64,000 bases of DNA from a virus. The notes below the pieces were generated by a model, which saw only the letters and a list, made by a program, of their open reading frames with translations, ran no database searches and had not been told where the DNA came from. The translations under genes and the position numbers were made by a program. The stretch covers positions 30,729 through 94,728 of IMG/VR virus record IMGVR_UViG_3300017917_000405; one strand, written 5' to 3'. Shown piece after piece: positions 30,692-42,934 of the stretch; the stretch's first letter is position 1, and the number at the start of each line of letters is the position of its first letter.

Positions 30692-30837
30692 TGAAAACTA
30701 ATAGAGAACTCAATCCAACAGAGTTTGAGATTGCATTCCAACTAAAGAATGCGTTAAACGAGTTGAGAAACTATCAAGATATTCCCGCTGCTATTGAGCA
30801 TATCGAATCAGCACTTACAAATCTGTATGAGTGGTGA
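30691..30837 (+). CDS. 48-residue helical protein
   Basis: MKTNRELNPTEFEIAFQLKNALNELRNYQDIPAAIEHIESALTNLYEW, predicted two helices with TPR-like spacing. Last gene of this operon; a composite cassette follows immediately. Confidence 0.6.
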   Translation: MKTNRELNPTEFEIAFQLKNALNELRNYQDIPAAIEHIESALTNLYEW

Positions 30838-41106: not shown

Positions 41107-41179
41107 CTGGAACGGCAGGATTCGAACCTGCGACTTAGGGATTAACAATCCCCCACTCTGCCAACTGAGTTACGTTCCA
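41107..41179 (-). tRNA. tRNA-Asn (GTT)
   Basis: Acceptor TGGAACG/CGTTCCA, D-arm ACTC..GAGT with GG, anticodon loop TTGTTAA, canonical T-arm GCAGG TTCGAAT CCTGC and discriminator G. CCA is not encoded. Its 5' end overlaps the upstream Cys-rich gene. Confidence 0.95.
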
Positions 41180-41315: not shown

Positions 41316-41386
41316 AGCCACTAGAAGGTATCGCGCCCTCTTCACCGCTTTACAAGAACGGTGCATTACTTTTATGCTATAGTGGC
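41316..41386 (-). tRNA. Atypical tRNA-Thr (TGT)
   Basis: All four stems pair: acceptor GCCACTA/TAGTGGC, D GCAT/ATGC, anticodon CCGTT/AGCGG with loop CTTGTAA, T GAGGG/CCTTC. The D-loop AAAAGTA lacks the G18G19 pair and the T-loop CGCGATA lacks T54T55. Four-base variable loop. Same architecture as tRNA-Gly at 42334. Confidence 0.8.
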
Positions 41387-41814
41387 AAATCTAGTCTCCA
41401 ACTGCCAAACTCTTTTGCTGTTCTTCTTCTGTGGCAGTTAACACACACAGTATCACATTTATCTAATTCTTCAATTAATTCTTCTATTGGAACTTTTATT
41501 CTTCTCAAACTTGAAATAGTATATTTTTTTTCTTTACTATTTCTATGATCAAGTTCCATTACTACTGGATCTTTTTCACCGCAATCCATACACCCAGTAA
41601 CAATTTTTTGTGCAATATATGCGTCTACCTTTGCTGTCCATATATTATCGTTATTTTTTACATATACGTCTTTATGCTTATTATATTTTTCTGGATTATT
41701 TTTATAATATTGCCTCATATATGCCGCGTAGCATGGTTTACACCTTGACCTACTTCCAGAAACTAAATTTTCTTTCGTAAGTTTTTGATTACACGATATA
41801 CAGTAATTTCTCAT
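41377..41814 (-). CDS. HNH endonuclease between tRNA genes
   Basis: 145 residues from ATG 41814; a longer reading would run through tRNA-Ile. N-terminal zinc finger (CISCNQKL...CKPC), then HNH: GCMDCGEKDPVVMELDHRNS, KCDTVCVNCHRRRT. The TAG stop is bases 8-10 of the atypical tRNA-Thr. Very AT-rich, consistent with a mobile nuclease. Confidence 0.88.
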   Translation of the reverse strand: MRNYCISCNQKLTKENLVSGSRSRCKPCYAAYMRQYYKNNPEKYNKHKDVYVKNNDNIWTAKVDAYIAQKIVTGCMDCGEKDPVVMELDHRNSKEKKYTISSLRRIKVPIEELIEELDKCDTVCVNCHRRRTAKEFGSWRLDLPL

Positions 41815-41839
41815 GTTATAAGTATAACATAACTTATAG

Positions 41840-41913
41840 TACGCAGCCAGGGAATTGAACCCTGCTCTAAGTTGCTTATAAGACGACTTCTGACCACCAG
41901 CCAGCCGCTGCGC
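41840..41913 (-). tRNA. tRNA-Ile (TAT), slightly irregular
   Basis: Acceptor GCGCAGC/GCTGCGT (one G-T), D-loop with GG, anticodon loop CTTATAA, T-arm CAGGG TTCAATT CCCTG, discriminator A. The anticodon stem has one C-A mismatch and extends two extra pairs, so the anticodon call is provisional. Would read AUA, a codon common in this AT-rich genome. Confidence 0.7.
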
Positions 41914-41953
41914 CAAGCAGTTTTATATGCTTATTATATGTCCTACAACTAGG

Positions 41954-42208
41954 CTATGTCAAGCCCAACTTCTGATAGAAATCATTCTTAGGAAATGCAC
42001 CAACAATATTTGCTAGAACCTCTCCATTATTTTCAAGAATGAATGTTGGTACGCCAGAGACACCGCTGACCTTTGCCATATCTGGATTCTGGTCAATGTC
42101 GATCATTTCATATTCAATTTCTGGGTGCTCTTCAATTACCTGCTTGATGATAGGCTTCATCATCTTGCATGGCTGACACCATTCTGCTGTGAAATGCTTT
42201 AATTTCAT
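41954..42208 (-). CDS. Thioredoxin-like protein
   Basis: 84 residues after AAAGGAGAAAT. Redox motif WCQPC (Cys11, Cys14) and cis-Pro loop GVPTF complete a minimal thioredoxin fold. Likely electron donor to the class II ribonucleotide reductase. Confidence 0.92.
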   Translation of the reverse strand: MKLKHFTAEWCQPCKMMKPIIKQVIEEHPEIEYEMIDIDQNPDMAKVSGVSGVPTFILENNGEVLANIVGAFPKNDFYQKLGLT

Positions 42209-42232
42209 ATTTCTCCTTTATTAGTATTGCCG

Positions 42233-42305
42233 CGCCCCTGGTAGGAATCGAACCTACGACTAATGGATTAGAAGTCCACTACTCTATCCGCTGAGTTACA
42301 GAGGC
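42233..42305 (-). tRNA. tRNA-Arg (TCT)
   Basis: Acceptor GCCTCTG/CAGGGGC, D-arm ACTC AGCGGATA GAGT, anticodon loop CTTCTAA, T-arm GTAGG TTCGATT CCTAC, discriminator G. Reads AGA, a rare codon in many actinobacteria but frequent here. Confidence 0.95.
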
Positions 42306-42333
42306 AAGCGACAAAACATCAACTTCCCAAGCG

Positions 42334-42404
42334 AGCGACAGACGGGTAACGCTCCCGCGTATCCAGTTTGGAAGACTGGCGCATTGCTTTTATGCTACTG
42401 TCGC
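42334..42404 (-). tRNA. Atypical tRNA-Gly (TCC)
   Basis: Acceptor GCGACAG/CTGTCGC, D GCAT/ATGC with loop AAAAGCA, anticodon CCAGT/ACTGG with loop CTTCCAA, T GCGGG/CCCGT with loop AGCGTTA, discriminator T. The T54T55 and G18G19 contacts are missing, as in the atypical tRNA-Thr. Its 5' end overlaps the endonuclease VII-like gene. Confidence 0.8.
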
Positions 42405-42913
42405 GTATTTTTTAAATAGTTTGCAAGATTTATTGCACTATTATAATTATCATCTAAAAGACCAATAGCGCGATTGCATTTATCACACAAAAGACCTCTA
42501 ACACATTTACCACAAGATCCCTTTTCTTTATTACAACAAGAATGGTCATGATCTACAGATAAATTTTTCCCACTATTTTCTTTTTTTGTTCTTCCACAAA
42601 TATAACATCCACCACTATTTTTGTCAAGCATTTTTGTATATTCTTCAATACTAATGCCATAGTGTTGCTGTAAATATAACTCTCTTTTAACAATAGATTG
42701 ACAATCAAGACACCTTGATTTATGCGTCCATTTTTGTATATCTTCAATACTAAATATTTTTTTACAGCGAGAACACATTTTTTGTTTATCATTATTTATT
42801 TGCCAACCAAGATTTCTTCTTTTTGGAGGAAGTTTTCCTCTTTTAACACAATTGCTGCACATCCCATGAGACTTTGCACCTTCTCTAATGCATCCATTAA
42901 TACATTTGGTCAT
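42395..42913 (-). CDS. Endonuclease VII-like (HNH) nuclease
   Basis: 172 residues from ATG 42913, which lies just after a TACAAT box (leaderless possible). N-terminal Cys pairs (CINGC...CSNC, CSRC...CLDC), then the endonuclease VII core: GISIEEYTKMLDKNSGGCYICGR, LSVDHDHSC, CVRGLLCDKCNRAIGLLDDN. Family members resolve Holliday junctions or act as mobile nucleases. Its TAG stop is bases 8-10 of the atypical tRNA-Gly. Confidence 0.9.
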   Translation of the reverse strand: MTKCINGCIREGAKSHGMCSNCVKRGKLPPKRRNLGWQINNDKQKMCSRCKKIFSIEDIQKWTHKSRCLDCQSIVKRELYLQQHYGISIEEYTKMLDKNSGGCYICGRTKKENSGKNLSVDHDHSCCNKEKGSCGKCVRGLLCDKCNRAIGLLDDNYNSAINLANYLKNTRQ

Positions 42914-42934
42914 ATTTAATTGTACCACAAATAA

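Follow-up and report, generated by a model that had tools for sequence, protein, structure and literature searches.

Bacterial tRNAs are regarded as all but invariant at the elbow, the contacts of which have mostly been probed by mutation. Host enzymes that modify it act at U55 (TruB), U54 (TrmA), G18 (TrmH) and A58 (a methylase). In the staphylococcal cell-wall tRNA-Gly the T-loop has G55 C56 and the D-loop lacks GG. At the elbow, a tertiary pair between D- and T-loop offers a flat face for stacking by the L1 stalk of the ribosome, by RNase P and by T-boxes (PMC4810234). Here two viral tRNA genes with an altered elbow, tRNA-Thr(TGT) and tRNA-Gly(TCC), are described from a stretch of 64,000 nucleotides (the window; positions 30,729 to 94,728 of IMG/VR record IMGVR_UViG_3300017917_000405). 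The source is a tailed phage, the 94.7-kb record encoding a portal protein (PF04860) and ribonucleotide reductase. Both genes very probably encode decoding tRNAs whose elbow was remade through compensatory substitutions.

Structure of the two window tRNAs

tRNA genes in the window were called with ARAGORN and the Rfam covariance model RF00005, for which the gathering score is 29 bits. The two genes and their loops, numbered by the RF00005 alignment, are as follows; re-paired denotes the altered elbow.

41316..41386, minus strand: tRNA-Thr(TGT), re-paired elbow (ARAGORN and RF00005, 51.0 bits; CCA not encoded)
41367..41373, minus strand: D-loop AAAAGTA of tRNA-Thr, A14 A15 A16 A18 G19 T20 A21 (sequence and RF00005 alignment)
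41329..41335, minus strand: T-loop CGCGATA of tRNA-Thr, C54 G55 C56 G57 A58 T59 A60 (sequence and RF00005 alignment)
42334..42404, minus strand: tRNA-Gly(TCC), re-paired elbow (ARAGORN and RF00005, 53.7 bits; CCA not encoded)
42385..42391, minus strand: D-loop AAAAGCA of tRNA-Gly (sequence and RF00005 alignment)
42347..42353, minus strand: T-loop AGCGTTA of tRNA-Gly, A54 G55 C56 G57 T58 T59 A60 (sequence and RF00005 alignment)

A preliminary description, made from the letters of the sequence, had reported two tRNAs with non-canonical loops on intact stems, and both programs confirmed this. Every stem position is paired (7+4+5+5, with some G-U pairs), the variable loops are of 4 nt (TGAA in tRNA-Thr and ATAC in tRNA-Gly), and the cloverleaf folds are more stable than shuffled controls by 8.1 (z = -2.8) and 7.0 kcal/mol (z = -2.5). 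Covariance-model scoring, named in that description as a check, placed both complete cloverleafs above the gathering threshold; the canonical neighbours tRNA-Asn and tRNA-Arg scored 69.5 and 69.3 bits.

Both genes have a D-loop of the form A14 A15 A16 A18 G19 Y20 A21; their T-loop reads N54 G55 C56 R57 N58 T59 A60. The typical G18 G19 and U54 U55 C56, which RF00005 does not demand, are thus replaced by A18 G19 and N54 G55 C56. The preliminary description had the G18-U55 and G19-C56 contacts jointly lost or replaced; this stands for G18-U55, which has given way to A18/G55 together with another 54/58 pair, and fails for G19-C56, which is retained here and invariant in all 131 members of the class described below. 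In tRNA-Gly position 15/48 is A15/C48, and the discriminator is U73 in both tRNAs. The codons GGA and ACA are the commonest Gly and Thr codons of the window phage (51% of Gly and 49% of Thr codons in the window).

A class of viral tRNAs with the same elbow

The D-loop AAAAGYA was sought in virus and genome collections by three scans, which give lower bounds on abundance; IMG/VR itself holds some non-viral contigs. The first IMG/VR scan, with the shared D-arm fixed and the T-loop and variable loop free, gave at least 50 loci, the majority of them complete cloverleafs whose T-loops fit NGCRNTA. Five contigs (L018, L021, L026, L038 and L050) share one identical stretch that is a chance match to the D-arm pattern and not a tRNA. 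In the second IMG/VR scan the D-loop and T-loop were set and the stems left free, and in the third each bacterial and archaeal species was represented by a single genome. The class proposed in the preliminary description, with an AAAAG D-loop and an NGCG T-loop, was thereby found in other viruses, and at least 131 distinct AAAAGYA cloverleafs were collected (107 from virus loci and the window, 24 from genome contigs). A18, G19 and C56 occur throughout, G55 in 130/131 and A48 in 119/131, and T59 A60 is fixed, but positions 18, 19, 48, 55, 56, 59 and 60 are set by the second-scan pattern and are no independent evidence of conservation in that scan. CCA is encoded in 99/131. The sites of Gm18, T54, Psi55 and m1A58 are altered in 131/131 (positions 18 and 55), 113/131 (54) and 110/131 (58).

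Eight loci (L003, L006, L007, L010, L014, L029, L044 and L046) carry a tRNA-Gly-like sequence with the class D-arm, TCC in an apparent 8-nt anticodon loop, a T-stem mismatch and no ARAGORN call; these are possible frameshifting or non-decoding tRNAs. No published description of the class in phages was found in the open-access papers searched, and the class is apparently an undescribed, large set of viral tRNAs.

Covariation of the elbow positions

The joint alteration of D- and T-loop noted in the preliminary description recurs across viral tRNAs, in which the two loops covary well beyond chance. A broad scanner whose only requirements were paired stems, U8, A14, A21, G53-C61 and a pyrimidine at 33 gave 664 cloverleafs in the first 230 loci, of which 401 combined a GG D-loop with a TTC T-loop and about 190 a non-GG D-loop with NGC, with GG/NGC seen 6 times and non-GG/TTC twice. 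A pairing rule, by which 18/55 is G/U or A/G and 19/56 is Watson-Crick, was obeyed by 132 of the 149 tRNAs that were neither canonical nor AAAAGYA (shuffle mean 57.9, maximum 79). The rule was also tested by prediction: with position 55 left free, D-loops AATAGYA went with G55 in 92/94 cloverleafs, and with position 56 left free, D-loops AATGAYA went with U56 in 40/42.

The fungal mitochondrial-like contigs described below were excluded from the isotype, open reading frame (ORF) end, cluster, half-changed and 431-tRNA statistics. For 431 virus-locus tRNAs matching no fetch pattern the 2x2 table of A18 and G55 reads 51, 0, 2 and 378; kinship is ignored, and cell counts of this and the following tables are not independent events. 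A larger set comprised 771 distinct cloverleafs with 7-nt D-loops, including two added scans for C19 and U19; the search patterns inflate its totals, in which a few tRNAs from mitochondria and genome contigs are also counted. Here 18/55 was G-U in 459, A-G in 290, G-C in 11 and other in about 11, and 19/56 was G-C in 677, A-U in 55, C-G in 12, U-A in 11 and other in about 16. Two virus tRNA arrays (L100 4352-9007 and L465) show many 19/56 swaps (C19-G56, U19-A56, A19-U56) instead of A18/G55.

Position 54/58 in the 131-member class is G/G in 57, A/U in 45, U/A in 12, C/A in 9, U/U in 6 and C/U in 2. For this pair mutual information reaches 1.29, whereas permutations gave at most 0.13, and average-product correction leaves it in tenth place, amid Watson-Crick stem pairs. 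A third elbow pair, 16/59, was considered and is not claimed: A16 nearly always goes with T59, which is suggestive, but T16 occurs with A59 or T59, and canonical tRNAs too show preferences, though looser ones.

Closely related tRNAs differ in the elbow. Outside the loops the L287 and L260 genes for tRNA-Thr(GGT) share 96% identity; the loops themselves are AAAAGTA/GGCGGTA in L287 and AAAGGTA/ATCGATA in L260. The near-identical tRNAs of L248 and L070, and of L055 and L389, likewise differ by A18/G55 versus G18/U55, the switch being seen in tRNA-Ile and tRNA-Lys as well. Clustering at 80% identity gave 23 clusters over 16 anticodons with mixed elbow forms, which argues, at the level of sequence, for repeated switching between the forms.

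Random loss of elbow bases in decaying genes or pseudogenes would accord with the lowered RF00005 scores and with several class loci at which ARAGORN reports no tRNA gene. Intact stems, matched changes in D- and T-loop and retained identity bases speak against it, as does the rarity of half-changed forms, of which only 5 were found among tRNAs with 7-nt D-loops. As the preliminary description had held, the window tRNAs do not look decayed; a degenerate pseudo-tRNA was rejected, and decay, extremely improbable, appears already contradicted by the covariation.

Evidence on function

The A18/G55 tRNAs of virus loci cover 19 isotypes, including His, Ile, Gln, Lys, Tyr, Pro and Trp, and Ser was not found among those of the loci scanned. 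For each isotype the discriminator is that of the canonical counterparts (Gly U, His C, Asn G, Cys U, Ile A, etc.), U33 (96%) and R37 (98%) match canonical tRNAs by isotype, and CCA is encoded in 80% compared with 67% of canonical virus-locus tRNAs. With so many isotypes, isotype-typical discriminators and CCA encoded as often as in canonical tRNAs, the re-paired tRNAs likely serve decoding.

The preliminary description had pointed to a role outside translation like that of the staphylococcal cell-wall tRNA-Gly. One window tRNA is indeed Gly(TCC), and Gly is among the most often re-paired isotypes (44% of canonical plus A18/G55 Gly tRNAs), but its window partner is Thr and the breadth of isotypes with typical discriminators tells against such a role, which is highly improbable.

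It had also been suggested that the tRNAs are processing signals for endonuclease messenger RNA. The neighbouring features bearing on this, and the canonical tRNAs used for internal comparison, are:

41107..41179, minus strand: tRNA-Asn(GTT), canonical elbow (RF00005 69.5 bits)
41377..41916, minus strand: HNH endonuclease ORF, the true start of which may be internal (phrog_2255, 3e-26)
42233..42305, minus strand: tRNA-Arg(TCT), canonical elbow (RF00005 69.3 bits)
42395..42928, minus strand: endonuclease VII-family ORF (PF02945, 1.1e-18)

The stop codon TAG of the HNH ORF is T8-A9-G10 of tRNA-Thr, and that of the endonuclease VII-family ORF is T8-A9-G10 of tRNA-Gly, as tRNA-like signals for these upstream messages might have it. 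Across the loci, however, class and canonical tRNAs alike have an ORF ending close by in 13% of cases and inside the tRNA in 2.9%; no enrichment of HNH genes at class tRNAs was seen, and tRNAs of phage T5 are likewise annotated with HNH gene overlap. The signal is thus a very improbable explanation.

At the 5' end of the HNH ORF, ARAGORN alone calls a tRNA-Ile(TAT) (41839-41913, minus strand), below the Rfam gathering score and with a canonical T-loop TTCAATT. A pyrimidine dimer DNA glycosylase (PF03013, 42935-43438) and a thioredoxin (PF00085, 41954-42208) are interspersed with the tRNA and endonuclease genes.

Distribution in cells, organelles and cultured phages

The AATAGYA-frame pattern, with A18G19 and C56, gave one match, not readable as a tRNA, among 299 genomes belonging to a single bacterial phylum, and its G18G19 version matched in 171 of these. 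The A18G19 pattern had no match among 288 genomes from the phylum to which Chthoniobacter belongs. Some contigs of that phylum (Verrucomicrobia; L174, L175, L176, L179 and L212) nonetheless hold tRNA arrays in which most tRNAs carry re-paired elbows.

Fungal mitochondrial-like DNA has the same elbow in tRNA-Thr(UGU) at seven GTDB loci within bacterial assemblies (L177, L180, L184, L199, L202, L209 and L215) and on IMG/VR contig L024, and in L024 and L215 the CAT tRNA has it too. A mobile tRNA-Thr element across bacterial phyla was considered for the loci L177 to L215 and rejected on their fungal mitochondrial look (tRNA set, TCA anticodon, Rps3-like ORF). The Rps3-like ORF of L209 (2228-3295) was judged by eye.

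BLAST against cultured phages gave few relatives. A re-paired tRNA-His is present in Streptomyces phage Warpy and its relatives, and Pelagibacter phage HTVC008M has an unannotated re-paired tRNA (AGAAGTA/AGCGTTA). In Pelagibacter phage Mosig EXVC030M (MT647606 7774-7869; L624 1984-2079) a class tRNA-Gly(ACC) is annotated as the short hypothetical protein QOI68975.1. As this and the missing ARAGORN calls illustrate, tRNA gene finders miss or misname members of the class. No A18/G55 tRNA was found in phage T5, which has only A19-U56, in tRNA-Ile1, and T5 was rejected as an origin of the class.

How the elbow may have been rebuilt

Comparison establishes, as far as sequences go, conservation, the covariation of 18/55, 19/56 and 54/58, the retention of identity bases and the spread over many viral contigs; we infer contact between the covarying bases, the A18/G55 geometry, and the production and charging of the class tRNAs. 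In this reading the elbow keeps its outer-face pair G19-C56, the one on which the L1 stalk, RNase P and T-boxes stack; the adjacent G18-U55 contact is swapped for A18/G55, the intraloop 54/58 pair is exchanged for covarying alternatives (G/G, A/U, U/A, C/A) and 15/48 for A15/A48. The elbow is then, judged by these comparisons, conserved as a set of contacts and not as a sequence.

Selection may preserve the shape of the elbow while phage tRNAs, which need not stay substrates of the host elbow-modifying enzymes, tolerate matched sequence changes. Freedom from host modification is the most economical reading of why the elbow changed, although it is much less certain than the structure. Such compensated drift fits the mixture of forms inside one phage.

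Several points weigh against a rebuilt, decoding elbow. The window tRNAs lie 16-19 bits under their canonical neighbours, T5 tRNA-Ile1 bears the A19-U56 swap and not the A18/G55 form, and off-rule 18/55 combinations occur occasionally (about 11/771 besides 11 G-C), making the coupling strong but not absolute.

An adaptive alternative is that phage tRNAs with a re-paired elbow escape recognition by host factors that read the usual elbow bases, for example the nucleases of tRNA-cutting defences or toxins, enzymes of modification, or the quality control of tRNAs. The joint alteration of the Gm18, T54, Psi55 and m1A58 sites in the AAAAGYA class, and the pattern that yielded no tRNA in the 299 bacterial genomes although its G18G19 version occurs in 171, favour it; escape from elbow-reading enzymes would fit the removal of four modification sites at once and the near absence from cells. 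Evasion of tRNA-targeting defences by phage tRNAs has been proposed before, through anticodon-loop changes (PMC10264068). Yet 132 of the 181 loci with re-paired tRNAs also hold canonical ones, which would leave the phage tRNA set exposed overall, the isotypes cover a broad range and are not those of one known nuclease, and no nuclease requiring G18 or U55 was identified in the present analysis. Such hiding, including the evasion of tRNA-cutting defences raised in the preliminary description, is conceivable but rather unlikely. Rather unlikely, too, is the stronger proposal that phages repeatedly evolved a host-independent elbow, with sites 18, 54, 55 and 58 removed to avoid the policing enzymes of the host and the G19-C56 face kept for RNase P and the ribosome.

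Whatever drove the rebuilding of the elbow, viruses offer natural double mutants in hundreds of tRNAs, with four Watson-Crick forms at 19/56, G/U or A/G at 18/55 and six combinations at 54/58. Elbow contacts thereby become testable by comparison, and tractable phages become available for asking whether translation needs elbow modification.

Comparison with known systems

With the class I elongator tRNAs of RF00005 the phage class shares the 7/4/5/5 stems, U8-A14, G19-C56, G53-C61, U33, R37, isotype-typical discriminators and often an encoded CCA, and differs from the canonical form in A18/G55 instead of G18/U55, 54/58 mostly other than U/A, and mostly A15/A48. Two other tRNA types were rejected. 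In type II mitochondrial tRNA the D/T contact is absent and the loops vary independently, which the strong loop covariation rules out. In tRNA-Pyl the D-loop is 5 nt long, a single base separates acceptor and D-stem, and the anticodon stem is lengthened (PMC7609411), whereas the window tRNAs have a 7-nt D-loop, two bases between acceptor and D-stem and a 5-bp anticodon stem.

R15/A48 together with A54/A58 was described for eukaryotic tRNA-Ala and reported absent from bacteria and archaea (Westhof et al. 2020, PMC7566577). The likeness lies in non-standard 15/48 and 54/58, the phage class having A15/A48 and an altered 54/58; the abstract of that paper describes no change at 18/55 or 19/56, unlike what is seen in the phage class.

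The fungal mitochondrial tRNA-Thr(UGU) and CAT tRNA have the same A18G19:G55C56 elbow, as seen in L215, L209 and L180, but are organellar, number one or two per genome and do not encode CCA; there the re-paired elbow presumably arose independently. The Neurospora mitochondrial initiator tRNA has a UGCAA T-loop. The staphylococcal cell-wall tRNA-Gly acts outside translation, binding EF-Tu poorly and serving Fem transferases, and is restricted to the Gly isotype, whereas the phage class spans nearly all isotypes and has decoding-type features.

T5 tRNA-Ile1(GAU) is, like the class, a phage tRNA with a compensated change at the elbow, here A19-U56, and differs in that G18-U55 is kept. According to GenBank record AY543070, anticodon replacement turns it into an amber suppressor, which is evidence that one compensated elbow type, A19-U56, can work in E. 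coli. Suppressor tRNAs with altered D/T contacts were reportedly obtained in functional form by the Steinberg group, whose work is cited in PMC7912444, from randomised D/T-loop libraries; those are artificial selections, whereas the phage class is natural, viral and spread over 19 isotypes.
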